A program made the translations under genes and the position numbers. From positions 1 to 38,662 of the forward strand of contig MWBQ01000208.1 of the NCBI GenBank assembly GCA_002069605.1: 38,662 nt of DNA. Direction: 5' to 3'. Below are positions 3,878-34,139 of the stretch, piece by piece. The notes beneath the pieces are model-generated. The model was given only the letters and a program-made list of their open reading frames with translations, ran no database searches and was not told the origin of the DNA. Numbering within the stretch: the stretch's first letter is position 1; every line of letters begins with the position of its first letter. The DNA is from Candidatus Atribacteria bacterium ADurb.Bin276 (GTDB lineage: Bacteria; Atribacterota; Atribacteria; Atribacterales; Atribacteraceae).

Positions 3878-3924
3878 TTGATTTCTAATCATAGAATCAT
3901 TGAAAAATTTTTTACTCATAACCC

Positions 3925-3982: not shown

Positions 3983-5164
3983 ATGAAGATGGCTTCCGTT
4001 TTGTGTATAAGCATGTTGATACTGGCGCTTGTTTTTCCAGCCTATGGCCAAGACCAGGTAGCATCACCTTTAGTAAAAGACTTGGAAAATATGGAACGTA
4101 TACTTTATGGTGTTCCAGAAACTGGAAGTGTTTTAATCCGTACTGAAAACCTTGAGAGAGATTTAATTGGTGATACCCTGTCAGGAACTTTAATGGAAAG
4201 GCTCAATACTCTGAAAACCTTCATTTTAACCGGTACACCTGAAGAACCTTCATTAGATTTTAAACTCAAGTCAATTCGACTTTCTCTCAATACTGCCGAG
4301 CAGAAAACTGGAATTTTAACCGCTCAACTGGACGAATTTGAACAGCTCATATTTGGTGTTCCCAGCGCCGAACCTATCGGTGTCCGGGTTGATAAGCTTT
4401 ACCGAACCGTAGTAAATACTTCCTACACATCAAATTTCCAGGTTACCGTTCCTGTTTCTTCTTTAGTAAAAGTTAGTATTCAAACCAATTTAAATTCAGA
4501 AAAAAATAATGTTGGCGACCCAGTTCCTTATGTTTTAATCGAGGATTTTATTGTAAATGATATTCTCATAGCTCCAGCTGGCACCGAAGGAGAAGGCTGG
4601 ATCAGCAAAATCCGCCGCAAAGGAAATTTCGGAAGAGCTGGTATGATTCAAATTGATTTTGGGTCAATCACCAGTCTTGATGGTACCCCAATAGTTCTTA
4701 CTTTGGGAGATAAAGCTATTCAAGAAAATAAAGCATTTGCTTATGCAGTTGGAACCAGTATTGTTGGCCTGGTCGCACTTGGTCCGATCGGAGCCGTAGC
4801 TGGATTTTTAATCAATGGGGAACCAGCCAAAGTTGAATCAGGTAGTGAGCTATTTGTGGAAACCACTCAGGAATTGGTTGTATCCGGCCCAATTGCTTCG
4901 TCAGTTTCATATCAAACCTATCAAGATCAAGGTTATACCACAACCGAAATTGACACTTACCAACCCTCCTATAATCAAGATCAAAATATCCCGGAGGTAG
5001 AAATTGAAGTTAAGCCAGTTGAGACTTGGGATACTGAAGAAGATATCGAAGAAACAGTTGATGTCACCAGCATTGCCACGCCGATTCCAATTCAACAATC
5101 CAAACCATCACCTACATCGGGTATTGATATCGAAATTAAACCCTACCAGGAAGGAGATTTTTAA
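3983..5164 (+). CDS. Secreted protein with four short repeats, unknown function
   Basis: No function recognised. ATG at 3983 is chosen because GGAG lies at 3971-3974 and the protein then begins with a clear signal peptide (residues 1-23, ending VFPAYGQ), giving 393 residues. Residues 34-145 contain short repeats of the form x-hydrophobic-E-x-x-hydrophobic-hydrophobic-G followed eight or so residues later by an R or K: NMERILYGVP (36-45), NLERDLIGDT (56-65), TLKTFILTGTP (76-86) and EFEQLIFGVP (118-127). The first three are spaced 20 residues apart. A beta-rich middle domain (150-280) ends in a glycine/alanine-rich hydrophobic stretch near 285-310 (AYAVGTSIVGLVALGPIGAV). The C-terminus is acidic and low-complexity. 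Probably exported, periplasmic or surface attached. It is the first of three close-set envelope genes, 4 nt before the next. Confidence 0.8.
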   Translation: MKMASVLCISMLILALVFPAYGQDQVASPLVKDLENMERILYGVPETGSVLIRTENLERDLIGDTLSGTLMERLNTLKTFILTGTPEEPSLDFKLKSIRLSLNTAEQKTGILTAQLDEFEQLIFGVPSAEPIGVRVDKLYRTVVNTSYTSNFQVTVPVSSLVKVSIQTNLNSEKNNVGDPVPYVLIEDFIVNDILIAPAGTEGEGWISKIRRKGNFGRAGMIQIDFGSITSLDGTPIVLTLGDKAIQENKAFAYAVGTSIVGLVALGPIGAVAGFLINGEPAKVESGSELFVETTQELVVSGPIASSVSYQTYQDQGYTTTEIDTYQPSYNQDQNIPEVEIEVKPVETWDTEEDIEETVDVTSIATPIPIQQSKPSPTSGIDIEIKPYQEGDF

Positions 5165-5168
5165 AAAT

Positions 5169-5951
5169 ATGAATAAAAAAACCCTCATCCTTTTGTTCCT
5201 AATTCCTTGTATTGTTGTTTTATTTATTAGCTTTACATCCTTAGCAAAAACCGATGCCGACAAAATTTATTCTCAAACCCAAAAAAAATGGACCCAAAGT
5301 CAAACCGTTGGGGATGCTTTCTCGGTAAAAGCTGTATTTTGGAATCCAGAATTGGTGCAGGCCTGGGTCGCCAAATACGGAGCTGAAAATCTTCTTTCTT
5401 TGGAAGAGCAAACTGCTTATCATCGTGACTTCATACAAAGAGAGCGTTTTCAACGATATTTAGTTTTTGATGTAACCATTGAAAAACTCACGGGACCCGC
5501 TCTTTTCCCTTTGAATTTTACTAAAAACACTTATTTAACCGACGATCAAGGCAATAAGTATTACCTACTTGAGTTCCCTCGTGAATTTGATGATAAAATT
5601 TTTGACAAAGTATCAGGAAAAATGTATTTCAGTCGAATCGGGAAGAATGATCAACCAATAGTTAGCCCAGATACCAAAAAAATTACTCTTCATTTTTCTC
5701 ATTTGTCAATCGAACCTTCTTATGTCGCTCAAAATGTCGAACTCATTTGGAAAGATCCTTATATTCCTCCTGATTACACCCAAGTAAGTTGGCAACCAGA
5801 ACTTGAAGAAGAAATCCTCCGTTTGCAAGAAAGAATTATTCTGCTGGAAGCAGAAAAAAAAGAGTTGATTGAAAATCAAAAACTGATTGAATCTGAAATT
5901 GAAAATGTAAAAAATAAAATCGAGGAGCTGCAAGCAAACCTAAAGCAATGA
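5169..5951 (+). CDS. Secreted protein with C-terminal coiled coil, unknown function
   Basis: No family recognised. ATG at 5169 follows AAGGAG at 5151-5156 and starts a typical signal sequence (MNKKTLILLFLIPCIVVLF, cleavage probably near SLAKT), giving 260 residues. A longer reading frame extends upstream to 5004 but overlaps the preceding gene and lacks a signal, so it was not used. Residues 30-205 form a mixed beta domain; residues 213-260 are a strongly predicted coiled coil with heptad leucines (ILRLQERIILLEAEKKELIE and on). Its stop overlaps the start of the LptD-like gene (ATGA at 5948-5951), so the two are probably translated together. A periplasmic partner of the barrel protein is a reasonable but unproven guess. 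Confidence 0.8.
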   Translation: MNKKTLILLFLIPCIVVLFISFTSLAKTDADKIYSQTQKKWTQSQTVGDAFSVKAVFWNPELVQAWVAKYGAENLLSLEEQTAYHRDFIQRERFQRYLVFDVTIEKLTGPALFPLNFTKNTYLTDDQGNKYYLLEFPREFDDKIFDKVSGKMYFSRIGKNDQPIVSPDTKKITLHFSHLSIEPSYVAQNVELIWKDPYIPPDYTQVSWQPELEEEILRLQERIILLEAEKKELIENQKLIESEIENVKNKIEELQANLKQ

Positions 5952-7552
5952 ACCAACTTCATCTCTTTTTTATAAAAGCGATGAAAAAACCAGTATTGGT
6001 CGCTTTTTTTCTATTATTAACTATTCCTTTAACGACAAGCATCGGAGCAAAAGAAGGCATTCGAATTAATGCCGATACTCTCCTTTATGACGATGCCGGT
6101 TCGCAGGTTGAAGCCATCGGAAATGTCCACCTATCCTGGAAGGATATTTCTTTTGCAACCAATCAGCTGCTTTTTCGGTTTGATACATCTGAAGCCTTTA
6201 TTCCAGGCTTTATAAAGGCTCGCTTTGGTAATTATCAAATTAGTGCAGAAAAAATGTACTACAACTTTCAAACCAGAAATGGTTGGTTTGAAAGCGCAGA
6301 ATTGGTATATGAATTAAGCGAAGGAGGAAATCTTTACTTTCGAGGTTCGAAGATCGAGTATCAAAAAGGAAAATGGACCGGTACCGACCTATTGGTTACC
6401 GGATGTCCACATTCACCTCCCTTATACAGCGTTCGTGCTAAGGAAGTTTTAATCTATCCACAGGATCGGATATTAATCAGCGGATTAGGGTTTTTCATCA
6501 AAGAAAAAAGAATTATTCAACTACCTGCCTATTCCCGGCTCCTCAACAATCATGGTTCTAATTTTATACCGAGCTTGGGTTACCAAAGAAAAAAGGGGCT
6601 CTTTGTTGAAGGCAACTATGAATATCTTTTCTCGGAAAACTTGTTATTTCAGGCTAATCTATACTATTCCACCTTACAAAGCAGTCGAATAAGTAGTGAC
6701 ATAACCCTTCAGTATCCCTATGTTGAAGCACGGATATTTATTGATCTTTGGCAAAATGAAGAGTCTACCATGGGGGGTTATGCTCATTATCAAAAAAATG
6801 GATTATCTCTCTGGATGTTAGGTATTGAAAACGAAAGGTTTAACGATGAAGTCATCAGTCGTTTACCCCAATTCATCGCTTCTTACCGTACTGAATCTGA
6901 AAATGGATTTTTTATTGAAGCGAATTTAAGTTATGGAAAATTTTCCCAGGGTGATATGAGTACTTGGCGAAACGATGTTTATTTAAGCGCAGGATTGGAA
7001 AAAAAGAGCTACGGGGGAGAAATTTTCTATCAAAACATTAACCTTTCCGTTCTTGATGATGCAACTGTTTGGGGAGGAAAGGTCTGGGCGGAAAAAGAAT
7101 TTTCTTCTCATTTTAGCGCAGGAATATTTTATGAATATACTCAAGTAAATGGAGAAACCTATTTTTTCTTTGATCCCAAAGATACTAATATTTTCGGTTT
7201 GGAGTTGGTTTATGGTAATCTTGACCAAACTTATCTTCGACTTCGAGGCGAGTATGATCTTAATATTGGAGGCCTTGGTGATATTATTGCCGGTATCGGA
7301 TTAGGAAGTAAAGAGTTTTCTGTAGGCATGGAGACTATTTACTCCTTTCCCGATCAAAACTGGGAAGAGCGTCGTTATTATATTCGAAAACAGTTAGAAG
7401 AATGTATCGATATTGAAGCTTCTTATTGGGAATCTGACCAAACCTTTTTTGTAAGTGTTAATCTGGCTGGACTTGATCAGAAAAAACACATCGAGAGCTT
7501 ATTTGATGAGCAAGAAGAATACGACCTTTTTAATCTGAATCGTGAAAACTAA
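5948..7552 (+). CDS. lptD: LptD/OstA-type outer-membrane LPS assembly protein (short form)
   Basis: Probable outer-membrane barrel that inserts lipopolysaccharide, or a close relative. After a signal sequence (about residues 12-34) comes an OstA/LptA-like beta-jellyroll domain (38-150: GIRINADTLLYDDAGSQVEA, GNVHLSW), then the LptD-like VTGCPHSPPLYSVRAKEV segment (150-168), then many aromatic-ending beta strands to a terminal strand (FFVSVNLAGL). The protein has exactly two cysteines, C153 at the end of the N-domain and C486 in the last strands. These sit where LptD proteins join the two domains by disulfide. It is 534 residues, shorter than E. coli LptD (about 780). Start: ATG 5948 overlaps the previous stop; ATG 5981 (MKKPVLV) gives a more compact signal peptide and is an alternative. 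The gene symbol is a family assignment, not proof of LPS export. Confidence 0.75.
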   Translation: MNQLHLFFIKAMKKPVLVAFFLLLTIPLTTSIGAKEGIRINADTLLYDDAGSQVEAIGNVHLSWKDISFATNQLLFRFDTSEAFIPGFIKARFGNYQISAEKMYYNFQTRNGWFESAELVYELSEGGNLYFRGSKIEYQKGKWTGTDLLVTGCPHSPPLYSVRAKEVLIYPQDRILISGLGFFIKEKRIIQLPAYSRLLNNHGSNFIPSLGYQRKKGLFVEGNYEYLFSENLLFQANLYYSTLQSSRISSDITLQYPYVEARIFIDLWQNEESTMGGYAHYQKNGLSLWMLGIENERFNDEVISRLPQFIASYRTESENGFFIEANLSYGKFSQGDMSTWRNDVYLSAGLEKKSYGGEIFYQNINLSVLDDATVWGGKVWAEKEFSSHFSAGIFYEYTQVNGETYFFFDPKDTNIFGLELVYGNLDQTYLRLRGEYDLNIGGLGDIIAGIGLGSKEFSVGMETIYSFPDQNWEERRYYIRKQLEECIDIEASYWESDQTFFVSVNLAGLDQKKHIESLFDEQEEYDLFNLNREN

Positions 7553-10086: not shown

Positions 10087-11148
10087 TCAGTTTGGTGTAG
10101 TTTTATTTCTTAGAAATCTTTGGTCTTCAACAACTCCCCAAAGAAGATAGGCAGCAATCCTTTCTATTGTTCCTGATGTTCCAAATCGGCTTTTTAAAAA
10201 ATTGTTGTATTCATAAAAATTGTTGGTATTTTTTAAATAAACGAACATTTCTTGAGGATGATTCCGATCCAGAGGTATGACTTTTTTATTTATACCAACC
10301 GCTTGTATGGTGTAAAGATCATCCATTGATAAAATAAGATCGGATTGAACCAAGGTTTCGCTCTGAAAAAGAGTTAAATTAATATAGTATGGGTTTTTCC
10401 AAAGATATCCTTCCAATATTTCTCCTTCTAAACTTTTTGATAAATTCCATCCCAATCGACTTGCTATGGCAGTAATTGCCTGCATGGTTTTTTGACCAGG
10501 GGGAATTACCATCAGATAATAACCGTTCATCATATCGGCAAAATCAGGAAAGAGTTTGAGGATAAGCTCAAAATCAAATTCAAAACGATCAATACTGGGG
10601 AAAAAAGAATAAATTGGCTTTTTCCCGTGTATAAATGGAAATTCAATGGGTTGAACCAAATCAGAAAGAACATTTCCAATGAAATAAGAAGCTTGGTTTT
10701 TTTGACGGAGATAATGATTGAGATATTGATCATTGGTTAAAAATGATTGGGTAAGGTATTTAGTAAAATAGTAATCAAACCATGAGAATGTCTGGTTAAA
10801 TTGACGAGTTATCCATATGAAAATTGGTTTTTTTTGAATGAGAAAAAATATCCATAGAAGAAGACAAGTCTTATGTCCTATCAATATTATAGTCTCTCGA
10901 AATCTTCTCCTTCGACGCAAGGTTCGTATCATACGATACCATTCAATAACTTTTGGAAACAATTGAAATATCGATGGTAGAGTTATGTCGGATTTTATCT
11001 CAGGATAATCTTGTTTCTTTAATTCTTGTATATAATGGGGGTGGAAAAAATAGACTTTGGCAAGGGATACTTTTCTTAAATTCCAACAGATATTTTTACT
11101 GATTTGATCTTCTAAATCATTTTCTGGAATGAATAGAAAACACTTCAT
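10087..11148 (-). CDS. Divergent LpxB-like glycosyltransferase-family protein (tentative)
   Basis: 353 residues, no confident family. Features that recall lipid-A-disaccharide synthase (LpxB) and its distant relatives are a glycine-bearing YFIGNVLSDLV block in the middle (compare G-x-P-x-x-D), an ILSMDDLYTIQAVGINKKVI segment, and a C-terminal RFGTSGTIERIAAYLLWGV (compare the R-x-G-x-SGA-S-E-R-I-A ending of LpxB-like proteins). There is a short hydrophobic patch (TCLLLWIFFLI, about 88-98) but no signal peptide, so it is probably cytosolic and peripheral. ATG with GAGGGG 6-11 nt upstream. 94 nt before nadC, same strand; head-to-head with the nitrilase gene. The sequence is rich in aromatics and isoleucine and diverged, so the call should be taken as a hint only. 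Confidence 0.45.
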   Translation of the reverse strand: MKCFLFIPENDLEDQISKNICWNLRKVSLAKVYFFHPHYIQELKKQDYPEIKSDITLPSIFQLFPKVIEWYRMIRTLRRRRRFRETIILIGHKTCLLLWIFFLIQKKPIFIWITRQFNQTFSWFDYYFTKYLTQSFLTNDQYLNHYLRQKNQASYFIGNVLSDLVQPIEFPFIHGKKPIYSFFPSIDRFEFDFELILKLFPDFADMMNGYYLMVIPPGQKTMQAITAIASRLGWNLSKSLEGEILEGYLWKNPYYINLTLFQSETLVQSDLILSMDDLYTIQAVGINKKVIPLDRNHPQEMFVYLKNTNNFYEYNNFLKSRFGTSGTIERIAAYLLWGVVEDQRFLRNKTTPN

Positions 11149-12393: not shown

Positions 12394-12882
12394 ATGGCTG
12401 GAGATATTAACTATTTTTTTGGTATTGGAAATCTCACGCGTGACCCTGATCTTCGCTATACTCCCCAGGGGACACCCGTATGTCGATTTGATATAGCTAT
12501 GAACCGTTTTTACCAAAATAAAAATGGCCAACAAACGAAAGATACCACTTTCCTAAGAATAACCGCTTGGAGTAAGCTTGGTGAGAATTGTGCACGTTTT
12601 CTTCATAAAGGGAGCAGAGTAGCGGTAGTTGGAGAGCTTCTTGCTAATAATTGGGAAGATCGGAACGGGACTAAACGAACTTCCTATGAAGTCCGGGCAA
12701 TGAATGTACAATTTCTTTCCCCGCCTCAAAAAGCCAACGAAGAAATTCGGGGAATTGGTGAGGGTTTTTCATCTGAAGCCGAAATTGAACCTTTTAGTTT
12801 TGATTCCCAAAATATGGAGAATGCCTTAGGAGAATTAGAAGATATTTCTCCAGAAGGGAACAACGATGTCGCGCCATTCTAA
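12394..12882 (+). CDS. ssb: Single-stranded DNA-binding protein
   Basis: 162 residues. The N-terminal OB-fold (1-110) has all family landmarks: GIGNLTRDPDLRYTPQGTPV, FDIAMNRF, TTFLRITAWSKLGENCARFL, GSRVAVVGEL and YEVRAMNVQFL. A flexible acidic tail follows and ends DVAPF, a variant of the DDDIPF tip that recruits repair and replication partners; the terminal P-F is kept. ATG with GGGGGA at 12382-12387. It is unusual to find ssb ahead of a cell-wall amidase. The last 17 nt overlap that gene, so coupling is likely. Protects single-stranded DNA in replication, repair and recombination. Confidence 0.93.
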   Translation: MAGDINYFFGIGNLTRDPDLRYTPQGTPVCRFDIAMNRFYQNKNGQQTKDTTFLRITAWSKLGENCARFLHKGSRVAVVGELLANNWEDRNGTKRTSYEVRAMNVQFLSPPQKANEEIRGIGEGFSSEAEIEPFSFDSQNMENALGELEDISPEGNNDVAPF

Positions 12883-14521
12883 TTCCTTATATATATGGCT
12901 TTTGCTTCTTCTATTTTGCTTGGTTTTTTCTCAACCAATCTATTCAAAAATCAATATTGAATATCAAGGACAGGTCTTTTCGCTTGATTTACCAACAATA
13001 AAAGTCAATGGTGATAATTACATCTCGGTTGAAAATCTTTTCAAACAAATAGGGGGGGTAGAATATTATTCTCCCATTATGAAAAAAGTAAATCTATTTT
13101 TTGGGGGAAAAAATTGGGTTTTATCACTTGACAAAGGAATAGCCGTTGCTGAAAGTGGTGAAGAAATACCCTTAGGACGTTCGGTGGTCATTCAAGAAAA
13201 TTCCGTTTATATTTCACCTCAATTTCTTAATCAGCTCTTTGGAATTTCCACTGATACCAGTTCAACAGTCGTAACTCCGTCACCTTCACCAACAAAAACA
13301 CCTTCAACAATCTCACCGGTTACCCTTCCTACTGGAAGCTCGTCACTCCTTAATGTTCGGTCTCATTCCTATGGTGATGAAAATCGCTCAAGGGTTACTT
13401 TTGATTTTGGGATTAACTTACCAACTCATTCCATGCAAACCGACCAAGCCAACAACCGCATTATTCTAACCTTTAACAATGCTACCTTGGCTCCAGGAAC
13501 ACCAGAGACATTCTCTCTAAACGATAATCGAGTAGATCGAGTAGTGCTTAATAAAAAAGGGAGTAACGTCGAAGCTATTATTTATTTAAAATCTCCCGCC
13601 TCAATTCAAAAAAACCAATTGGGCGGAGAGAATCCCCGTATTTATTTAGACATAGTTACTTCCACTTTGTTAACATCTCCTGATGTAACAATTCTTCCAG
13701 CAAGTCCATCTCCACCAACACAACCCACTACAACACCAGCGCTTACGTCTACTCCTACACCTGTTGTTCCTACGCCTACAACCAAACCACCAGTCCAACC
13801 AACGACTGCAACACCTTACGACAAAATTAATCCCAGGGTTATTGTTATCGATCCTGGTCATGGTGGGAAAGACCCCGGTTGTGTTGTTAACGGGTATCAA
13901 GAAAAAGACATTATCCTCCAGGTTTCTAAAAAGCTTAAAGAAGCCCTTACTCAACAAGGCTATGAAGTATATTTGACCCGTGAAGGCGATACCTATCCTG
14001 GCCTTAAAGAACGATCCGCAGTAGCCAATAATAAACAGCCAGTGGTTTTATTAAGCATTCATGCCAATGCTGCCCCTAATAAAAAAGCTACTGGGGTTGA
14101 AGTTTTCGTAGGAAGTGCACAGATTCATGGCGAAGGGGCCGCTGACGTTGCAAATCGTGAAAATCAACGTTTTATTTCAGAAGGGTATACTGAAGAACAA
14201 AATGGAAAAATTAACTCTACTCTTCTTGATTCTTATTATTTAGGAAGTCGTACCGTGAGCATGAAGCTCGGTTCTTTAATCGAAAATAACATCGTCAAAG
14301 AGACCGGCCAGGCTTCAAGAGGGCTTAAAGAAGCACCCCTTATTCTATTAAAAGGAATGTATTTCCCCTCATGTTTGATTGAAATTGGTTTTTTGAGCAA
14401 CCCAACCGAAGCAAAAAACTTAGCAAACGGAGCCTTTCAGGACAAACTGGTGCGAGGAATAGTGGTTGGCATAAAACAATTTATGTCAAGTTCAGATTTA
14501 AAAAAATTCCTTGAGGAATAG
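12866..14521 (+). CDS. N-acetylmuramoyl-L-alanine amidase with N-terminal stalk and AMIN-like domain
   Basis: Exported zinc amidase that cleaves peptide stems from peptidoglycan. Order: signal sequence (about 1-27), a copper-amine-oxidase-N-like domain (30-128), a Pro/Thr-rich linker, an AMIN-like domain (about 160-275: LNVRSHSYGDENRSRVTFDF), a second Pro/Thr linker (275-322), and the Amidase_3 catalytic domain (324-545). Zinc ligands are H332 in DPGHGG, E346 in QEKD and H399 in SIHANA; catalytic E506 is in IEIGFLSNP. ATG at 12866 has AGAAGGGAA immediately upstream and overlaps ssb. The two linkers suggest reach across the periplasm. The AMIN-like domain usually targets the enzyme to envelope sites. 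Position before gerMN, rph and rdgB suggests one operon. Confidence 0.92.
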   Translation: MSRHSNSLYIWLLLLLFCLVFSQPIYSKINIEYQGQVFSLDLPTIKVNGDNYISVENLFKQIGGVEYYSPIMKKVNLFFGGKNWVLSLDKGIAVAESGEEIPLGRSVVIQENSVYISPQFLNQLFGISTDTSSTVVTPSPSPTKTPSTISPVTLPTGSSSLLNVRSHSYGDENRSRVTFDFGINLPTHSMQTDQANNRIILTFNNATLAPGTPETFSLNDNRVDRVVLNKKGSNVEAIIYLKSPASIQKNQLGGENPRIYLDIVTSTLLTSPDVTILPASPSPPTQPTTTPALTSTPTPVVPTPTTKPPVQPTTATPYDKINPRVIVIDPGHGGKDPGCVVNGYQEKDIILQVSKKLKEALTQQGYEVYLTREGDTYPGLKERSAVANNKQPVVLLSIHANAAPNKKATGVEVFVGSAQIHGEGAADVANRENQRFISEGYTEEQNGKINSTLLDSYYLGSRTVSMKLGSLIENNIVKETGQASRGLKEAPLILLKGMYFPSCLIEIGFLSNPTEAKNLANGAFQDKLVRGIVVGIKQFMSSSDLKKFLEE

Positions 14522-14527
14522 GACCGA

Positions 14528-15133
14528 ATGAAAAGAAGAAAAAAAAGACTCGCTTTTCTTCAGCCAATATTATATATCCTTATCGGAATGGCAGTTTTTT
14601 TTGCAATCGTCTACGCTGGTGAATACTTGATCCCCGGGGGAAAAAAGAACACTGTAGCTCCTGATGATACGGGATTTCTCTCGACCGGTCAAACTTCTTC
14701 AGTAATCAGCGATTCTACTGTAGAGGTTGTTCTATACTTTACTGATGAGGATTTTAGTGGCTTAGTTGCAGAAAAACGACTAATTGAAAAGCATCATAAT
14801 ATGCTTGAGTCGGTTCTTCAAGAACTGCTGAGAGGACCCAAGCTTTCATCTCATTATAATCCACTCCCTGAATCAACGCGATTAAACGGTGTTTTCACTG
14901 AAAGCGGTATTGTTTATGTTGACCTCAGCCATGAAATGAAAGACGGGCAATCGGGTGGAACCACCCAAGAACTTCTCAGTATTTTTAGTATTGTAGATAC
15001 TTTAACCTCACTTCCTGATGTTAAACGCATTAAAATATTAATTGATGGAAAGGAAGAAACTACTCTTTGTGGACATATCGACATATCAGAACCACTGGAA
15101 AGGGATGAAAAACTCATTGCAGAAATTCAATAG
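14528..15133 (+). CDS. GerMN-domain membrane-anchored protein
   Basis: 201 residues: a basic start and one membrane helix (15-35, [20 protein letters not shown]), then a GerMN domain (about 68-190). Family features are [31 protein letters not shown], a central YVDLSHEM and [20 protein letters not shown] ending in a [12 protein letters not shown] segment. In Bacillus the GerM lipoprotein with this domain helps spore assembly; here it is simply a periplasm-facing protein of unknown job, perhaps linked to peptidoglycan since an amidase gene precedes it by 6 nt. Its end overlaps the proposed start of rph. The gerM-rph-rdgB order is shared with Bacillus. Confidence 0.82.
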
Positions 15134-23954: not shown

Positions 23955-25070
23955 ATGTCGTCTCCCGTTTTATTTGTTAGTTTGAGAGCTGATAATGAAA
24001 GAAATTCGGTTCTACAGAAAGTTAAAAGAATGACCGGTCAACTCCTTGATAAGCGCTTAAAATCTGGTGATTTGGTTGCAGTTAAACTCCATTTCGGAGA
24101 AAGAGGAAACCATGGTTTTATCCAACCGGTATTTTTACGCTATATTATTGAAGAGGTTAAAGAAAGGGGAGGGAAGCCTTTTCTCACCGATACCAACACT
24201 CTTTATACCGGCTTTCGTCATAATGCGGTTGATCATCTTGAAACTGCAACATTTCATGGATTCCATTATGCAACCGTTCCAGCTCCCCTCATCATTGCTG
24301 ATGGTCTTCGGGGAAGTGATTTTTTTGAAATTGAAATTAATCAAAAACATTTTAAAAAAGTTAAGGTCGCTTCGGCGATCCATGAAGCTGATTTTTTACT
24401 GGTCGTTACCCACGTAAAAGGACATGTTGAAGCTGGGTTAGGTGGATCAATCAAAAACATCGGCATGGGTTGTGTTGCTCGTTCCGGAAAGCAAATGCAA
24501 CATGGAGAAACTTTCATTCCTAATCCCGATTCGCAAAAATGCATTGGTTGTAGGCGCTGTATCATTCATTGTCCAACCCAAGCTCTTTCCCTTGATAAAA
24601 ATCATAAAGCAAAAGTTCAAAAAGACCTTTGTATTGGCTGTGCTGAATGTGTAGTTTATTGTCCAACTGGTGCCATCGCTATCTCCTGGACATCTTCAGC
24701 GTCACTTTTACAAGAAAGAATGGTTGAACATGCCTTTGGGGTTTTAAAAGATAAAATGACTAAGAGTCTTTTTATTAATTTTTTAACCGATATTAGTCCC
24801 GATTGTGATTGTTGTGATTGGCATGATGCCAGTTTGGTTCCCGATATCGGTATTTTAGGAAGTCATGATTTGGTGGCTATCGATTTGGCTTCGGCCGATC
24901 TCATTAACCGCTCGATAGGACTTCGAGACTCGTCGCTAAGTCGTGCATTTCAGGGTGGTCAAGATAAGTTTCTCGACGTCCATCCCGTTGCGAATTGGAG
25001 GACTCAGATTGACTATGCTCAGTTAATCGGTTTAGGAAATACTGATTATTCTTTGAAGGAAATAAAATAG
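23955..25070 (+). CDS. DUF362 protein with two 4Fe-4S clusters
   Basis: 371 residues. The N-terminal DUF362 region (about 1-190) includes VAVKLHFGERGNHGFIQPVF, FLTDTNTLYTGFRHNAVDHL and VTHVKGHVEAGLGGSIKNIG. Two ferredoxin motifs follow: CIGCRRCIIHCP from C196 and CIGCAECVVYCP from C226. A third cysteine cluster, DCDCCDWHD, lies near residue 280. Expected to be a cytosolic iron-sulfur protein, perhaps electron-transferring; no substrate is known for the family. ATG with GGAGGTG at 23943-23949. Single gene, ending inside the large hairpin at 25066. Confidence 0.88.
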   Translation: MSSPVLFVSLRADNERNSVLQKVKRMTGQLLDKRLKSGDLVAVKLHFGERGNHGFIQPVFLRYIIEEVKERGGKPFLTDTNTLYTGFRHNAVDHLETATFHGFHYATVPAPLIIADGLRGSDFFEIEINQKHFKKVKVASAIHEADFLLVVTHVKGHVEAGLGGSIKNIGMGCVARSGKQMQHGETFIPNPDSQKCIGCRRCIIHCPTQALSLDKNHKAKVQKDLCIGCAECVVYCPTGAIAISWTSSASLLQERMVEHAFGVLKDKMTKSLFINFLTDISPDCDCCDWHDASLVPDIGILGSHDLVAIDLASADLINRSIGLRDSSLSRAFQGGQDKFLDVHPVANWRTQIDYAQLIGLGNTDYSLKEIK

Positions 25071-25403: not shown

Positions 25404-28400
25404 CTAATTTGGTTCATCCCCAGCAACAAAATTAATCTTTGAACCGGGAACTATTACCTCAACCGAATGCTCTTGGTGGTCGTCAATCAATTGAACAAAT
25501 TGGTCGGGTTGCTCAATGCCGTCAACTATAACTCTCGTTTCGCCTGAAGAACATATAAAAGTGATATGATAAACCGTTTCTCGATACCTATAATGGACAA
25601 TAAATTGTTTCCAATCTACCGGGAAACAAGGTGTAAAGCGAAGTTTATCCACATCAAGTCTCAACCCTAGGATTGACTCAACTATCAACTGATACATCCA
25701 GCCTGCTGAACCCGTGTACCACGACCAACCCCCTCGGCCGGCATGAGGTGGGAGCGCATAAACATCAGCAGCTACCACGTATGGTTCTACTTTGTATATA
25801 TTAATTTCATCCTTTGTTTTTCCGTGATTTATGGGATTGATGATAGAAAATAATTCCCAAGTTTTTTGTTGGTCACCCATGGCAGCGAATGCCATAACCA
25901 CCCAGATTGCTCCATGAGTGTATTGCCCGCCATTTTCCCTAACACCTGGAACGTATCCTTTTATATAACCAGGATTCAAATTCGATTTATCAAACGGGGG
26001 GTTCAAAAGTTGTATCAGGGCTTGGTCACGGTGAACCAGATGCTGGTTCACCGATTCCATAGCAGTCTTTGACCGCTCAATATCACCAGCTCCCGAGAGA
26101 ATAGACCAGCTTTGAGCAATCGAATCAATCTGGCATTCAGGGCTGTCTGATGAACCAAGCACTGTTCCATCGTCGAAGAATGCACGACGGTACCATTGGC
26201 CATCCCAGCCGTGTTTTTCGATATTCAAACGGACACGAATCGCCTCACTCTTACAAAGCTCGGCAAAGGAGATATCGTTCTGCCTGCGGGCAACCTCGGC
26301 AAACTGAGTGAGAACATTATAAAGAAAAAATCCGAGCCAGATACTTTCACCTTTCCCTTGAATGCCTACCAGATTCATACCATCGTTCCAGTCACCGGAA
26401 CCAATCAGTGGTAATCCGTGTTCACCAAAACTTAAGCCTCTCAAAATAGCCCGTACACAATGTTCGTATAGGCTGGCGGCTTGCTCAGATCGTTCGGGCA
26501 AATCATAATAGGAATCTTCTTCAACTTTTACCGGGCGGCCTTCGATGAAGGGGAGGGATTCGTTTAGTACACCGATGTCTCCGGTATTCAAAACATAACG
26601 GCTGGTTACCAGTGGTAACCAGAGATAATCATCTGAACAGTGGGTTCGAACTCCCCGGCCTGAAGGGGGATGCCACCAGTGCTGAACATCTCCCTCCTGG
26701 AATTGTCGAGCCGCACAGCGAAGTAGGTGTTCACGAACTAAACCTGGCTCGGCGTGAATGAGCGCCATAACATCCTGGAGTTGATCACGAAAGCCAAAAG
26801 CTCCCCCCGACTGGTAATAACCGGTACGCGCCCACAATCGACAAGCAATAGTCTGATATAAGAGCCAACCGTTAGTCAGGGTATTGAGAGCTAGATCAGG
26901 TGTTTCTACATGAATTGCTCCCAGAGTGTGATTCCAATACTGCCATACTGATTCGAGTTCACCTCTTGCAGCGTCAGATTCCTGAAAACGATGCACTAAT
27001 CGACTAGCATCATTGGCATCTTGCCCCACTCCCAAAGTGAAGACGAATTCACGCTCTTGTCCGTCTTCCAAATCGAAAGTCACCTGAATAGCAGCACATG
27101 GATCCAATGAAGCTCCCACTTTTCCAGAAAGCCTTGATCGGTTCATGGCGGCAGGATTTTGATAGGTACCATTCCGTCCCAGAAATTCATTACGATCACA
27201 GGTAAATGTTCGAGAAGAATCGTCTACACTGAAAAAGGCAACTCGGTCAGCAAACTCGGTATGGTAAGGATTACGGGCAAAGAGTGCTCCGCTATTAGGA
27301 TCAACTTCAGTGATCAGATGCATGGTCGTTTTCGGCTTCAGGTCCCCCAACACCCATTCTACAAATCCAGTAGCAGAGAGACGTCGGTTCCGACCCGATT
27401 TGTTCCGAATTTTCAACACGGTGAACTTGATTGGTGCATTCAGCGCTACGTAAATCCACATCTCGGAGTAGATGCCTCTTTCAATATGTTCGAAGACACT
27501 GTAGCCAAAACCATGGCGGCTGATATACGGTCTGGTACCCTGCCTTGGAAGTGGTGTGGGTGACCAGAAGCGTCCGCTTTCCTCATCACGGATATACCAG
27601 GCTTCTCCGCTTGCATCAACCACCGGATCGTTGTACCAGGGACTGAGTCGAAATTCGTGAGCGTTCTCGCTCCAGGTATAGGATGATCCACTTTCGGAAA
27701 TAACAGTTCCAAAAGTGGGATTTGACAGAACATTCACCCAGGGTGCTGGTGTTAATTGCTTATGTTTGGTAGTAATAATATATTCGCGACCATCGGGGGT
27801 GAACCCTCCAAACCCATTGAAGAAAATCAGATCTCGATGGGGCAATTCAACCGATGGAGAGGATTTGACGGTGGGTCGTTTCACTCTCGAGAATGGAGGA
27901 ACGATCGATTCTGCAAATCGGTAACGGTTGATCTGCTCTGCCAGTGTTCCTCGATTATCGGTGATAATAACACGAGCAACCGCTTGGAACAAGATGCGAT
28001 CTTCGCTCGATATTTGGTCGGTATTTCTTACAAAAATACCACCCGGACGATCGATTAAATTAGCTTCGAGACCGGAAGCAATCAGATCCAGGATCTGATC
28101 ATGAAGCAGTTGCCGGTAACCAGAGTGTTCTTCATTCCAGATCACCAGATCCACTACCAATCCCTTTAGGCGCCAATACGCATGGGCTTGGAGAAGTTGA
28201 CGTACCAGTTCGATATGTGCCGGATCTCCAATCCGTATTAGCACAATGGGTAAGTCCCCGGATATGGAGTAACCCCATAAACCGGACTGTCCACGTTGAT
28301 TTTTGCTGAGAATACTTGGGTCAGCACGCAAGGATGGATTAGCATAGATTATAGAGCTGGCAAGGTGTCCATAAATTTGAGCGTCAGACTCAGTTGCATT

Positions 28401-31400
28401 GATTTGCCGTAGAACCACCTGACTATGGGTCAAGGCAAGGTCAAAGGCACGGTCGGCGAGAGACTGGTCCTGGTATTTTTCTACCAACCTTAAAACTTCA
28501 TCACGGGTTTCGCTGACTCCAGATATAATATATACCATTACCGATTCTCCTGCATCGAGCAAGATCCCATGCCGGATTGCAACAACCGGATCAATAACAG
28601 AGCCCTGGCTATTCGAAAGTGCTGACAAGTCGCGCATAGCCACTGGATTAACGATGGTGTTTCCACGTCCAATGAATCGCATACGATCGGTTTCAAAGGA
28701 TATTTCTCCAACTTCTGCCCCATGCACAGTCATCAGGTGAAACATCCAGGGAGGATTCTCGTCGGTTGAGCGAGGTCGGCGTGTACATAAAATAGCTCGT
28801 TGTGGGCGGTTAATTTCTGTCTGAACAAAAAGATTGCTGAACACCGGGTGTATCTCGTCGGCTGCTGTCGACGTGAGAACGACCTCAGCATAACTGGTGA
28901 CATCAATTGATTTTCGCATCCCGGAATGGTTGGTGATGCGGATTCGTCTCAGTTCGATATCGTCCTCCGGTGAAACCGTGATTTCAGTGTGGGTTTCGAA
29001 AGTGCGGTTAAGGCATCGGAACTCAGCCCGGGCATCAGAAAAAATAACTTCATAGTTCTTAGCTCGTTTCAGTGTCGGCTGAAAAGTAGCTGACCAGAAA
29101 TCTCCACTGGCAACATCACGAATGTAACAAAACGTACCCCAATTATCGCGGGTAACGTCTTCGCGCCAGCGGGTGACGGTTATGTCATTCCAACGACTGT
29201 AACCACCACCGGAATTGGTGACCATCACTTGGTATCTGCCGTTCGACAGCAACTGTACTTCTGGAAATGGTGTGTCAGGACTATCGAAAACACGTACTGG
29301 TGTTTCCATGCTACTGGGAGTTATTAATAAATCGGATTGCTCAATGGTATGGCTATAAACAGCTGAGGTCTTTGGAACACGTTCCTGGAGCAAAAGCATT
29401 GTGGCCTGGAACATTGGGTTCAACTCAAATCGCTTCTGCATCGGACGATCGAGTAGAGCATTGGATAGAGAGAGGATACTCATACCCAGATGATGGGCCA
29501 TAAAGGATCGGACAACAGTGCTTGATTGACCAGGATGTTGACGAGAAGAAGTGTAGTCGATGGCTTCATAAAAACCGAACTTTCCCAAGTACCCTTTAGT
29601 AGCGAGCCGCTCGAGATTCAGACAAGCCTCTTCTGGTGCAACCATTAGCGCAAGAATAGATGCATATGGTGCAATAACCAAATCATCAACGAGTCCACGC
29701 TTGAAACCTAGACCTGGGACACCAAACGCACGGTACTGATAGTTGAGACGAGCATCAATTGCATTGTAGCATGACTCCGAAATACCCCATGGAACTCCTC
29801 GTTTTTTCCCGTATTGAATTTGTCTTTCAACAGCTCCCCGGTAAGATCGGTCGAGTAAGGTGTTTTCATAGGTTGGCATAACCAGGAGCGGCATGAGGTA
29901 TTCGAACATTGAACCACTCCATGAAACGAGAACCGGTTCTCCTCCGGTGTTGGCAAGAAGGCGCCCTAGAGCGAACCAGCTCTCCTGTGACAATTGTCCC
30001 TGAGCAATTGCCACGAAATATCCCAATCTAGCCTCAGAAGCCAGCAGATCATAAAAACTCGATTCCCGTCGATGTTCGCTTACATTATACCCAATTGCTA
30101 ATAAATGCCGGTCCTTGTCGAATAGGAATTCATATTCCATTTGGGCGAGCCCGCTGGATTGTCGAACCAGACGATCAATACTATTTATTCTTGCTTTGGC
30201 ACGCTTACTTGATTCTAATATGAGCCTTTGAATCTCTTCAAGCCATTTACGTTCCTCGAGAGTGTTAGCCGAGACGAATTGGTTTTTAATTGCTTTAGAA
30301 TACTTCGCCGGGAAGCAGGCTAATTCACGGAGTGTTGGAATTTCATTCAAACCAGAAATGTTGCTAATTCTTTTAAATTCTGACGAAAGCAATATCCAGG
30401 GGGCAAAATATGTCAACTCGTCAAGGAGGTTTCGACATTGACGGATTAGAGCATTTGCCCACCACATTACCTCGTTTTCTGAGTCTATCTCCAGACGATC
30501 AGTCGCCTTAGTGGCCGATTCTGCCAGTCGATCAATGCAATGCCAAGCTGATGTGAGCGTCATGGCTGATAGATAAGATGCTGAGGCTAAATTTTCTTTA
30601 AATTCTTCAAACTGATAGGAGACCAACTCACCCCCGATGTCCATCAAAACATTGAAGGTATCATTGAGCCCATCTAACCACTGGGTACTTAGTATCTTAT
30701 GATCAGGAAGATTGAGTAGACCTGAATGCAACGTCAATAAGTGACCAGCGAGGTTTCCACTATCAACAGTTGAAATATAAAGCGGTGGAAGCGGTTGAAG
30801 GGACAGGGTGTCATACCAGTTATAAAAGTGACCTCGGTAACGTTCCAGGGATTCCATGGTACCAAAAGTGCTTTCTATGCGTCCTATAAGCTGCCCAGTT
30901 TGAAGATAACCAAAGTCATATGCGGCTAAATTTGCAAGAAGCGCGAGCCCTATATTGGTAGGTGATGTGCGGTGAGCAACCGCCTCAGTGAGATGTTCCT
31001 GATAGTTATCCGGCGGTAGCCAATGATTTTCTATACTAACGCAGTTTTCAAAATATGCCCAAGTTTTTCTGGAAAGCTTTCGGAGAAATATGGTTTGTTT
31101 GGCTGTAAACTGATGCGGCCGAGGGATAAGAGGTCGGCTGATCCACCAGGCAATAATCGGGGAAACAAACCAGACTGTCAGCATGGGCCCGGCTACTAAC
31201 AACATAGCTGGCTTGTAAAAAACTAGGTAGGTCACAATGGCAAAGGCGCTGACTGGAGCGACCCACATTTCCCGGTAATGGGTAACCAGACTTGACGCAT
31301 TGAAATGTAGATTGCTCGATGGATTCCATTCAAGGAGCTTTTGATGGGTAACCAGCAACCGCCAGGCAGTACGCAAAATCGCATCCAGGTTGAAAAAGGC

Positions 31401-34139
31401 TTCGTATGGTAAAAAAATGAGCGTAAATGCTGCCTGAATGAAGCGTTTAACATTCAAGTGGAAGGTGGAAATGAGATGCTGTAGAAATAGTACATCCTTT
31501 GGTTTTCGGAATATTTCAAAAACCAATGATATCAAAGACGGAATTAAGAGAATCCCGATAATTGCCAAAGACCAAAACCAGGGTGGTGACAAAACCATCC
31601 AGCCAAGAAGGAATAACAGCATCAAGGTTGTGGGGATGAGACTGCGACGAAGATTGTCGAAGATCTTCCATTTGGAAAGTCTCGAGAGCGGATTTTTCTC
31701 TCGTTGGTTGCTGAAGCTGGGAACGTGTGGCAGCAACCATGAGGCAATCTGCCAATCGCCACGAACCCAACGATGTCGTCGACTCACATCTGAGCTATAG
31801 CGTGATGGATATTCTTCATACAACTGTACATCACTTAATAAACCCGCCCGCGCATAGCAACCTTCTAAGAGGTCGTGGCTCAGAATCCGGTTTTCAGGAA
31901 ATCGACCATCCAAAACTTGATTGAACACGTCGACATTATAGATCCCTTTGCCAATGAATGAGCCTTCGCCGAATAAATCTTGGTAAATGTCGGAGACAAC
32001 ACGAGTATAGGGATCAATACCTGGCTCTCCGGAGCAGAATCGCGCATACCATGACCGGTTCGAACCAGGCAAACTTAGATCTACCCGTGGTTGAAGAACT
32101 CCATACCCACCGGTGATACACCGTCTTTCTTCATTATATTGGGCACAATTCAGTGGATGTGCTATAGCACCTACGCACTGCCGTGCCGAATCACGAGGGA
32201 GTTGGGTATCAGTGTCAAGGGTAATGACGTATTTTATTTTTTGTAAGATTTCAGCATTACCTATAATCAATGAGAAACGGTCTTTTGCTCCACCTCGCAA
32301 AAACGAGTTCAATTCTATGAGTTTCCCTCGCTTCCGTTCGTAACCCATCCAGACTTTTTCATTAGGATTCCACTGTCGGGGACGATGGAGAAGGAAAAAT
32401 TGACCACCTTTTGTATCACGATACTTTTCAATCAATGTTTCAATTCCCAGTCGGGCTACTTGCAGCAATACCTTGTCATCCGGCATGGTTTCCTCTTTTG
32501 CGTCAAGAAAATCGGTTAATAGACAAAAGTGAAGATTCTGGTCAAGGTTAGCTAAATATCGGACCTCGAGTGCCTCGATCAGGTCCTCGATATGGCGGGT
32601 ACTGGCGAGCATGCTGGGAATAACCACCAGAGTACATGATTCTGGTGGAATTCCTTTCGAAAAGTCCATTCGTGGTAATGAATCGGGTTTCACCAGCAAG
32701 GAAACTAACCAGTTCGTTAAAACTACCCCCAGTTGACTGGTGCCCAAAAGAGAGAGAACTCCGACCAATGAAAGGAGCCAGCCGGTTAGCATATTGGCAG
32801 GTGTAATATTCAACAAGCTCCAGGTAAAAATTCCTGTCATCAGGACGATGGTGCCTAAATAGAAGAATAATGAAAACCGACGGATTATCCGCCCAAAAAC
32901 TAACGGGAGGGATAAGTGAACCCCCATTATCCGTTCGAGCTGCGTTAATCCTTTATCGATTAAGTAGTACCCGACATGAGCCGTTCGATCATCTTTGTCT
33001 TTCCCGGAGGTACCTTTTTGTGCCAGCTGTAATGCTTTACGCGCCACCTCGCTCTCGGAACAATGGCTGCTTTTAGCAATCTTCTCCACGACATGACGGT
33101 AATGATCCCGGGTGCTAAAATCCATTTTTCCATAGACCCCACTCGGATCTTCCCTCAACACCCGATCAACTATACTCGCAGTTTCGACAAACTCACGCCA
33201 GTCCATTGCTCCTAAAAATCGCAGGGAACCAATACTGTTACTCAAAGACACCTGGTCAGCGGCCTGTTGTTGATTTTCTGATCGAACTAATAGCTCTGTG
33301 GTTAGCCCAGATTCAGTAAGCCGTTGTTCAACCCAGGAGAGAGGCAATGCGAGAGCGGGGCTCTGTCCTTGTAATCGATGAGTAAGTTCCGCAACAAAAG
33401 AACCTTCCATCGGTGGATTCGACCGTGCCATATCTGCGATCACCAGAATTAGATTCTTCGGATCTTTCTCCGCAATCTCCATCATGCGGTCAGCCCAATA
33501 ATTAGCCAGATCCAGGTTGATCCTACGAGCGCTGATTCGAGCCGCAATTCTTCGTAAGTTCTCGATCAAGGTCAAACGAAGCATGATAGGAATTGCCCAT
33601 AATTCACCTAAATTTAAATCTACAAGGGTCTGGTAGGAAGTGACGAAGCTGACGAGATTTTCCATATCTACCCGTCCATCACCGTGTAGGATGACTTCCA
33701 AAGCAATATCGTACACCCGAGGAAGCCCGGCCGATGGGCCACTAAGCAAGCATGGTAATTCCCGGCTATACTTTTTTGGTAAATATCTTTTGGCGGTACG
33801 AATCTGTTCTTCAATTAGATAGAAGTTATCAAGAAACCATTCCTCAGCAGGAGCAATCCTGGGATTTCTCTTGACCGCTGTTAGCAGCAAACTATAAGTT
33901 TCAATCAAGACCCTTTCATTTTCGGCTAAGCGTTTCAGATGCTGGTCAGGTATTCGTTCTGGACTTATAATGTGTGAGGCGGCGAGTCTTTTGCCATGCT
34001 GTTTCATTTGGTCACTACTGAGCAATTCAGATCGCAATGGCACCTCTTCTCCGCTGGTTTTTCTTATCAATCTTTTATCCAAGAAGCGATCTTTTCGATG
34101 GCGAAAGGATGATCGTCTTGTTTTATTTCCCATTTTCAT
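25404..34139 (-). CDS. ndvB: Cyclic beta-1,2-glucan synthase (NdvB/Cgs type)
   Basis: Giant inner-membrane enzyme, 2911 residues, close to Brucella Cgs and rhizobial NdvB (about 2830-2870). It polymerises UDP-glucose into beta-1,2-glucan, closes the ring and trims length. Order: N-terminal region (1-420); membrane helices (about 425-490); GT84 transferase domain (about 500-800) with DTDTQL near 643, HDLLEGCYARAG and RRHRWVRGDWQ near 788; more helices (830-875, 960-1003); the glycoamylase-like cyclisation region (GH189-type, about 1055-1560: TNIGLALLANLAAYDFGYL, GVPWGISESCYNA); then two GH94-related units with the phosphorylase-like active site GSGDWNDGMNLVG near 2580 and VRENGGQYTHGAIWV near 2735. 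The ATG at 34137-34139 has GGAG 7 nt upstream; a TTG two codons earlier is less likely. Sample lines are 47-57% GC against 30-40% in neighbours. Confidence 0.92.
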   Translation of the reverse strand: MKMGNKTRRSSFRHRKDRFLDKRLIRKTSGEEVPLRSELLSSDQMKQHGKRLAASHIISPERIPDQHLKRLAENERVLIETYSLLLTAVKRNPRIAPAEEWFLDNFYLIEEQIRTAKRYLPKKYSRELPCLLSGPSAGLPRVYDIALEVILHGDGRVDMENLVSFVTSYQTLVDLNLGELWAIPIMLRLTLIENLRRIAARISARRINLDLANYWADRMMEIAEKDPKNLILVIADMARSNPPMEGSFVAELTHRLQGQSPALALPLSWVEQRLTESGLTTELLVRSENQQQAADQVSLSNSIGSLRFLGAMDWREFVETASIVDRVLREDPSGVYGKMDFSTRDHYRHVVEKIAKSSHCSESEVARKALQLAQKGTSGKDKDDRTAHVGYYLIDKGLTQLERIMGVHLSLPLVFGRIIRRFSLFFYLGTIVLMTGIFTWSLLNITPANMLTGWLLSLVGVLSLLGTSQLGVVLTNWLVSLLVKPDSLPRMDFSKGIPPESCTLVVIPSMLASTRHIEDLIEALEVRYLANLDQNLHFCLLTDFLDAKEETMPDDKVLLQVARLGIETLIEKYRDTKGGQFFLLHRPRQWNPNEKVWMGYERKRGKLIELNSFLRGGAKDRFSLIIGNAEILQKIKYVITLDTDTQLPRDSARQCVGAIAHPLNCAQYNEERRCITGGYGVLQPRVDLSLPGSNRSWYARFCSGEPGIDPYTRVVSDIYQDLFGEGSFIGKGIYNVDVFNQVLDGRFPENRILSHDLLEGCYARAGLLSDVQLYEEYPSRYSSDVSRRHRWVRGDWQIASWLLPHVPSFSNQREKNPLSRLSKWKIFDNLRRSLIPTTLMLLFLLGWMVLSPPWFWSLAIIGILLIPSLISLVFEIFRKPKDVLFLQHLISTFHLNVKRFIQAAFTLIFLPYEAFFNLDAILRTAWRLLVTHQKLLEWNPSSNLHFNASSLVTHYREMWVAPVSAFAIVTYLVFYKPAMLLVAGPMLTVWFVSPIIAWWISRPLIPRPHQFTAKQTIFLRKLSRKTWAYFENCVSIENHWLPPDNYQEHLTEAVAHRTSPTNIGLALLANLAAYDFGYLQTGQLIGRIESTFGTMESLERYRGHFYNWYDTLSLQPLPPLYISTVDSGNLAGHLLTLHSGLLNLPDHKILSTQWLDGLNDTFNVLMDIGGELVSYQFEEFKENLASASYLSAMTLTSAWHCIDRLAESATKATDRLEIDSENEVMWWANALIRQCRNLLDELTYFAPWILLSSEFKRISNISGLNEIPTLRELACFPAKYSKAIKNQFVSANTLEERKWLEEIQRLILESSKRAKARINSIDRLVRQSSGLAQMEYEFLFDKDRHLLAIGYNVSEHRRESSFYDLLASEARLGYFVAIAQGQLSQESWFALGRLLANTGGEPVLVSWSGSMFEYLMPLLVMPTYENTLLDRSYRGAVERQIQYGKKRGVPWGISESCYNAIDARLNYQYRAFGVPGLGFKRGLVDDLVIAPYASILALMVAPEEACLNLERLATKGYLGKFGFYEAIDYTSSRQHPGQSSTVVRSFMAHHLGMSILSLSNALLDRPMQKRFELNPMFQATMLLLQERVPKTSAVYSHTIEQSDLLITPSSMETPVRVFDSPDTPFPEVQLLSNGRYQVMVTNSGGGYSRWNDITVTRWREDVTRDNWGTFCYIRDVASGDFWSATFQPTLKRAKNYEVIFSDARAEFRCLNRTFETHTEITVSPEDDIELRRIRITNHSGMRKSIDVTSYAEVVLTSTAADEIHPVFSNLFVQTEINRPQRAILCTRRPRSTDENPPWMFHLMTVHGAEVGEISFETDRMRFIGRGNTIVNPVAMRDLSALSNSQGSVIDPVVAIRHGILLDAGESVMVYIISGVSETRDEVLRLVEKYQDQSLADRAFDLALTHSQVVLRQINATESDAQIYGHLASSIIYANPSLRADPSILSKNQRGQSGLWGYSISGDLPIVLIRIGDPAHIELVRQLLQAHAYWRLKGLVVDLVIWNEEHSGYRQLLHDQILDLIASGLEANLIDRPGGIFVRNTDQISSEDRILFQAVARVIITDNRGTLAEQINRYRFAESIVPPFSRVKRPTVKSSPSVELPHRDLIFFNGFGGFTPDGREYIITTKHKQLTPAPWVNVLSNPTFGTVISESGSSYTWSENAHEFRLSPWYNDPVVDASGEAWYIRDEESGRFWSPTPLPRQGTRPYISRHGFGYSVFEHIERGIYSEMWIYVALNAPIKFTVLKIRNKSGRNRRLSATGFVEWVLGDLKPKTTMHLITEVDPNSGALFARNPYHTEFADRVAFFSVDDSSRTFTCDRNEFLGRNGTYQNPAAMNRSRLSGKVGASLDPCAAIQVTFDLEDGQEREFVFTLGVGQDANDASRLVHRFQESDAARGELESVWQYWNHTLGAIHVETPDLALNTLTNGWLLYQTIACRLWARTGYYQSGGAFGFRDQLQDVMALIHAEPGLVREHLLRCAARQFQEGDVQHWWHPPSGRGVRTHCSDDYLWLPLVTSRYVLNTGDIGVLNESLPFIEGRPVKVEEDSYYDLPERSEQAASLYEHCVRAILRGLSFGEHGLPLIGSGDWNDGMNLVGIQGKGESIWLGFFLYNVLTQFAEVARRQNDISFAELCKSEAIRVRLNIEKHGWDGQWYRRAFFDDGTVLGSSDSPECQIDSIAQSWSILSGAGDIERSKTAMESVNQHLVHRDQALIQLLNPPFDKSNLNPGYIKGYVPGVRENGGQYTHGAIWVVMAFAAMGDQQKTWELFSIINPINHGKTKDEINIYKVEPYVVAADVYALPPHAGRGGWSWYTGSAGWMYQLIVESILGLRLDVDKLRFTPCFPVDWKQFIVHYRYRETVYHITFICSSGETRVIVDGIEQPDQFVQLIDDHQEHSVEVIVPGSKINFVAGDEPN

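Follow-up and report, generated by a model that had tools for sequence, protein, structure and literature searches.

sLptD, a second and compact LptD paralogue with a single cysteine pair in an order of Atribacterota

The X-Y-sLptD locus

The window, i.e., the whole 38,662-nucleotide stretch of DNA analyzed here, has a G+C content of 40% and carries three genes in the order X-Y-sLptD (Table 1). The third gene, here termed sLptD, starts at an ATG within the stop of the preceding gene, a 4-base overlap (ATGA), and a convergent nadB-like gene lies on its 3′ side. Alignment of the homologues suggests that the true start of sLptD may be M12 (position 5981). For orfX, the TTG start at 3878 given in the ORF list was unsupported by the homologues. 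With the promoter and terminator scans, the signal was no higher than in shuffled sequences.

Table 1. Features of the X-Y-sLptD locus (window coordinates)
Feature	Position	Strand	Basis
orfX, 393-aa secreted protein, first gene of X-Y-sLptD	3983..5164	+	conserved ATG; synteny in order-mates
orfY, 260-aa exported protein, second gene	5169..5951	+	synteny; Ig-like beta-sandwich and C-terminal coiled coil predicted by model
sLptD, compact LptD-family protein, 534 aa	5948..7552	+	ORF, profile, Foldseek, tree, joint alignment
Putative signal peptide region, residues 1-34	5948..6049	+	alignment; prediction from sequence
Predicted OstA/beta-taco-like N-domain, residues 35-203	6050..6556	+	profile alignment with long LptD
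C153 codon, equivalent of E. coli LptD C173 (C2)	6404..6406	+	profile and joint alignments
Predicted beta-barrel, residues 204-506	6557..7465	+	model secondary structure; Foldseek LptD matches
C486 codon, equivalent of E. coli LptD C725 (C4)	7403..7405	+	alignments and model
Acidic C-terminal tail past the last strand, conserved SLFDEEEEFD motif	7466..7549	+	orthologue alignment

Wherever a genome of the order offered enough flanking sequence, the X-Y-sLptD arrangement was kept, and the surrounding genes differed. orfY was detected in 21/101 genomes, every one from this same order. Apart from coiled-coil matches, neither X nor Y had a Pfam or PDB relative by sequence; no significant Pfam family was detected in any of 13 orfX members, nor did orfX match the PDB. 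The AF2 model of the orfY product (mean pLDDT 74) has an Ig-like sandwich and a C-terminal coiled coil, and Foldseek returned a weak match to DUF4426 (3uc2, E 8e-4). X and Y were also considered as candidates for LptE, for which sequence support was absent; Y resembles an Ig-like domain with a coiled coil. For a protein as divergent as LptE, a family search would not be decisive.

Elsewhere in the window, the product of 10087-11148 (-) gave a weak match to the 'lipid-A-disaccharide synthase-related' model TIGR03492 (E 2.5e-5, far under the cut-off), and only part of this protein aligns in G004. The 371-aa product of 23955-25070 (+) is Cys-rich (12 Cys) and has a ferredoxin-like iron-sulphur domain at ~185-245, and a very long ORF of 2913 codons, with a TTG start and 28 Cys, occupies 25404-34145 (-). 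The neighbouring genes at 36020-37267 and 37264-38505 (-) code for an M16-type pair, kin of YfmF and YfmH. At 12866-15133 (+) an Amidase_3 protein with AMIN and Cu_amine_oxidN1 domains is followed by a Germane-domain (sporulation/spore germination) protein, in what is a diderm genome.

sLptD is a compact member of the LptD family

The AlphaFold model of sLptD has a mean pLDDT of 54, with values below 50 in the N-domain and mostly of 70-90 in the barrel; it is weak because the alignment was limited to eight sequences. When this model was compared with the PDB by Foldseek, the 34 best matches were all LptD (E from 8e-10), with TM-scores that were low (0.2-0.37) because the N-domain is poorly modelled. 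From the barrel pLDDT and these matches, the C-terminal part is predicted to be an LptD-type outer-membrane beta-barrel, with ~20 strands counted in the model. Past the last strand, L518 and F519 are invariant in the orthologue alignment. An OstA (LptA-like) periplasmic N-domain is predicted from the alignment with the N-domain of a longer LptD of the phylum (see below), and is consistent with the sole match in a PDB sequence search, a weak one to the LptD N-domain 7omm (E 0.33). In a profile-profile comparison, residues 38-513 of sLptD matched the long LptD with Prob 99.9 and E 6.6e-32. The Foldseek and profile matches bear out the first-pass annotation of this DNA, made from the sequence alone, which had described the product as an LptD-like barrel.

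The Pfam models were less sensitive. PF03968 did not match the window sLptD, and PF04453 (LptD) had no match in the window genome at E 0.001, so that sLptD is not above its curated cut-off. Since the long LptDs of Atribacterota likewise fail PF04453 or score below the cut-off, this model is too narrow to exclude the LptDs of this phylum. The best Pfam match of sLptD was to PF12600 (DUF3769), which we take to be a cyanobacterial LptD-like family; it was partial (residues 129-235, E 3.2e-4) and just below the gathering score (20.1 vs 20.5 bits).

Two LptDs are encoded in the same genome

The window genome also encodes a 661-aa long LptD (G000:C131; L031:890-2872), which has relatives across Atribacterota and an LptA-like gene ahead. 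In the tree the sLptDs group as a single clade with support 100/100, separate from the long LptDs, which also form one clade, and the short form was seen only in its own order of Atribacterota. sLptD is thus a new LptD subfamily: a second, compact paralogue that lies in a conserved three-gene operon and has an ordinary Cys layout, so that its novelty rests in the gene (second copy and operon) and not in the cysteines. The first-pass annotation had missed that the window protein is an order-restricted paralogue beside a longer LptD, and had rightly placed it in a lineage outside Proteobacteria (Atribacterota; every relative taken from a named genome is 'Candidatus Atribacteria'); an LptA-like gene, which it had proposed to look for, was found in the genome. 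A literature search, mostly of non-subscription journals, returned nothing on a second LptD or on LptD in Atribacterota.

In the long LptDs an invariant His takes the position of E. coli C724 (DLHC motif), and a second invariant His lies six residues past the first Cys (TTCDLEEPH). In the alignment with L031:890-2872, these two His and the two Cys make a potential C2H2 set.

The two cysteines are conserved and lost together

The 534-residue ORF does contain exactly two cysteines, as first annotated: C153 (GTDLLVTGCPHSPPLYS) and C486 (YIRKQLEECIDIEASYW). This low number says little by itself, because several of the neighbouring exported proteins are also Cys-poor (0-2 Cys). The order yielded sLptD orthologues from 20 genomes; 18 of full length, sharing 34-94% identity with the window protein, went into the alignment. 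Both C153 and C486 are kept in 17 of these 18. The exception, L019 from G012, has Ser and Ala in their place, and no orthologue spanning both sites retains one Cys without the other; retention of one alone is what the first-pass annotation had said would speak against its bridge. Joint loss in L019 by chance has a p of ~0.016 (the 17 sequences besides L019 share 60 invariant columns, 8 of which are altered in L019). We conclude that: i) the conservation of the pair exceeds chance, and ii) the possession of exactly two cysteines is a trait of most of the window's genus and not of the whole sLptD family, since homologues carry additional non-conserved Cys, up to 5 in total.

To place the pair in LptD terms, a joint alignment of the 18 sLptDs, 23 long LptDs, 12 LptDs from other phyla and E. 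coli LptD was used. C153 falls in the column of E. coli C173 and C486 in that of C725, i.e., at the positions of the C2-C4 bridge. These columns hold Cys in 23/23 long LptDs, 12/12 LptDs from other phyla and 17/18 sLptDs. There is no Cys in the C724 column in any short or long protein, E. coli C31 has no Cys partner in the other sequences, and sLptD lacks an equivalent of the C31/C724 pair. The mapping of sLptD on E. coli is routed through the long LptDs and the 12 LptDs of other phyla, a direct hhalign of sLptD against the single E. coli LptD having given no meaningful match. In the profile-profile register, C140 of the long LptD is the partner of C153 and C629 that of C486; C629 in turn aligns, weakly, with E. 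coli C725. In the sLptD model, C486 is in the turn linking the third-last and second-last strands, as in E. coli. From the C173/C725 columns, C153 and C486 would form an inter-domain pair of the LptD type.

In E. coli, C173-C725 is the C2-C4 bridge, which links the periplasmic beta24-beta25 turn with the N-domain (PMC12644819; the same bridge appears with slightly different residue numbering in PMC4353691), and either C1-C3 or C2-C4 is enough for function (PMC10567701). Campylobacter jejuni LptD (C8J_1196) is reported to have two cysteines only (PMC7089426). A single bridge is therefore not special to sLptD, because the long LptDs, the 12 LptDs of other phyla and the C. jejuni protein share the one-pair layout; among the LptDs compared, this looks like the common state and the two-bridge form of E. 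coli like an exception. Thus, of the single N-domain-to-barrel bridge first proposed for this protein, the C173/C725 positions are supported by the alignment, and the idea that it marks a minimal form falls with the wide occurrence of the layout.

A proposed role for sLptD

We consider it likely that sLptD is an outer-membrane lipid-translocon barrel, second to the longer LptD, with its N-domain held by the C153-C486 pair. The pair would pin the periplasmic N-domain to the turn ahead of the last two barrel strands and, like E. coli C173-C725, would keep the lipid slide in place at the lateral gate; by analogy, the mechanism is likely to resemble that of E. coli LptD. A single LptB and two LptF/G permeases would probably supply an LptA-type bridge from which sLptD takes its lipid, and sLptD may work with the co-encoded secreted X and Y to insert LPS or a related glycolipid. 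In this scheme we infer the export function, the substrate and the roles of X and Y. L019, which dispenses with both cysteines, counts against it, as do the low confidence of the modelled N-domain, the low TM-scores, the missing PF04453 match and the lack of DsbB, VKOR or a clear DsbA among the genomes of the phylum searched.

Lpt and lpx genes across the phylum

The window genome has the other Lpt parts as well as lipid A genes: one LptB that passes the family cut-off, two LptF/G permeases, LptA- and LptC-like genes, and LpxC. The genes are arranged as tlpA-lptC-lptA-lptB-permease-DUF3084. As read from the sequence, an lpxD-C-A-I-B-msbA-like cluster lies beside a BamA-like gene, with an OmpH-like gene, in agreement with the core LPS genes reported for Atribacteria in 2016 (PMC5007114).

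LpxC is present in 25/25 members of the order, as well as in G026 (family f6), and was found in 0/24 genomes of families f5 and f7, which we believe to be the JS1 lineage. Almost every member of the order has two LptF/G permeases, and the f5/f7 genomes, with the exception of G046, have one or none; the permease tree has two groups, whose deep placement is unsure. A long LptD occurs in 16 of the 24 f5/f7 genomes, all LpxC-negative, where the single LptF/G permease adjoins it. These long LptDs (e.g., in L096 and L097) measure ~730-1000 aa and carry the Cys pair, with one LptF/G, and LptA/LptC-like genes are close by where examined. Families f5 and f7 apparently hold an Lpt pathway without LPS and, since LpxC is absent, their long LptD would therefore have a non-LPS task or be a relic. 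The long LptD thus occurs whether or not LpxC is present, and sLptD solely alongside it, a co-occurrence that rests on one or two branches and at most suggests that sLptD serves LPS.

The same distribution can be read in another way, to which we give a substantial chance, somewhat short of even: sLptD may export a lipid other than LPS, or the labour may be divided, sLptD carrying LPS and the long LptD another lipid. The confinement of sLptD to an LpxC-positive order, the long LptDs of the LpxC-less families and a second permease that is typical of the order would all fit. G026 does not, for this genome (89% complete) has LpxC and a long LptD and no sLptD was detected in it; besides, a co-occurrence that amounts to one or two tree branches is weak evidence.

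Oxidation of the cysteine pair

The first-pass annotation had called for a disulfide oxidase in the genome, an expectation that failed for the two families searched. By family models, DsbB and VKOR were each found in 0/51 genomes, none in the 50 of Atribacterota, and both models matched in the control genomes. A clear DsbA was not detected in the phylum either: the Thioredoxin_4 matches were weak and in multidomain proteins of ~560 aa. One protein of 558 aa (L143:3653-5326, +) seems to join a CPVC-bearing thioredoxin domain to a CcdA-like membrane domain, and is possibly an alternative thiol relay. CcdA/DsbD-type membrane proteins (reductant channel) are common (45/51 genomes). A TlpA-type CxxC protein, which could be a reductant, an isomerase or an oxidant, precedes lptC-lptA-lptB in 6/6 genomes of the order checked; in two of these proteins (L086:7994-8758, -; L090:2281-3075, +) the C-terminal half is apparently rhodanese-like. 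G012 (L090) keeps the TlpA-type protein; its sLptD is without the Cys pair and its long LptD has it.

We infer that the pair of sLptD may be oxidized. Alternatively, in these anaerobes the two cysteines might stay as free thiols or help to bind a metal, a reading that we judge improbable. It would agree with the lack of DsbB and VKOR, with the common reductant channel and with the two invariant His of the long LptD. Nevertheless, the positions match a proven disulfide one for one (PMC4353691, PMC12644819), sLptD conserves the two Cys only and not the His, and anaerobes may use an oxidant outside the families searched.

Discussion

Our favoured reading, a second lipid translocon held by a C2-C4-type pair, differs from the view that sLptD is simply the LptD of this organism in a minimal form, with one bridge rather than two. 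The positions of the cysteines and their co-variation agree with that view; it becomes very unlikely once it is considered that the same genome has the 661-aa LptD, that relatives with the same pair occur phylum-wide, and that the one-pair layout is the common one among the LptDs aligned. Chance retention of two Cys in a Cys-poor exported protein, for which the equally Cys-poor exported neighbours might speak, can be dismissed in view of the 17/18 conservation, the joint loss and the same columns across phyla.

sLptD as a translocon for LPS could be part of a broader scheme, which we offer as speculation with little likelihood as a whole: within one order, genomes would run two LptD translocons, LPS being the cargo of sLptD, with X and Y as its dedicated partners, and a non-LPS lipid that of the long form; in both, a C2-C4 bridge would arise independently of DsbB and VKOR, perhaps via the TlpA-type CxxC protein. 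The long LptD may carry a non-LPS lipid because sister families keep it without LpxC.

Several points of wider interest follow. Among the LptDs compared, the C2-C4 pair, and not the two-bridge layout of E. coli, is the widely shared state, and two LptDs are retained in some LPS-bearing anaerobes. Two questions arise: by what route an important outer-membrane disulfide forms without DsbB or VKOR, and whether LptD-type translocons exist for lipids besides LPS. In diderm Firmicutes (Negativicutes, Halanaerobiales) no LptD was found in 2016 (PMC5007114), and the sLptD profile may aid the search for it.

Among distant genomes, those of family f83 (L149/L150, L151/L152, L153/L154) and family f207 (L155/L156) have short (490-530 aa) and long (700-765 aa) LptD-like proteins. 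The short proteins of f83 (L149, L151 and L153; 495-530 aa) resemble sLptD in being short, in having a long LptD in the same genome, and in having one N-domain Cys and a C-terminal Cys. They differ in forming a separate clade, in having two Cys in the C-terminal motif (CDC), and in that no X or Y was present in the stretches fetched. C. jejuni LptD, from Campylobacterota and compared here by its description in the literature, shares the two Cys. The long LptD of Atribacterota is homologous to sLptD over nearly the whole length and has its single Cys pair in register, whereas it is phylum-wide, has an LptA-like gene ahead, carries the TTC...PHY and DLHC motifs and belongs to a separate clade. 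The LptD of E. coli, Shigella and Klebsiella (PF04453 with PF03968) shares with sLptD an OstA-type N-domain followed by a barrel, C153/C486 on C173/C725 with C486 in the turn ahead of the last two strands, and a C-terminal tail past the last strand. In contrast to this type, sLptD has 534 rather than 784 aa and ~20 model strands rather than 26, is without the C31/C724 pair, is missed by PF04453, and stands alongside a longer paralogue in a phylum with no detected DsbB or VKOR.
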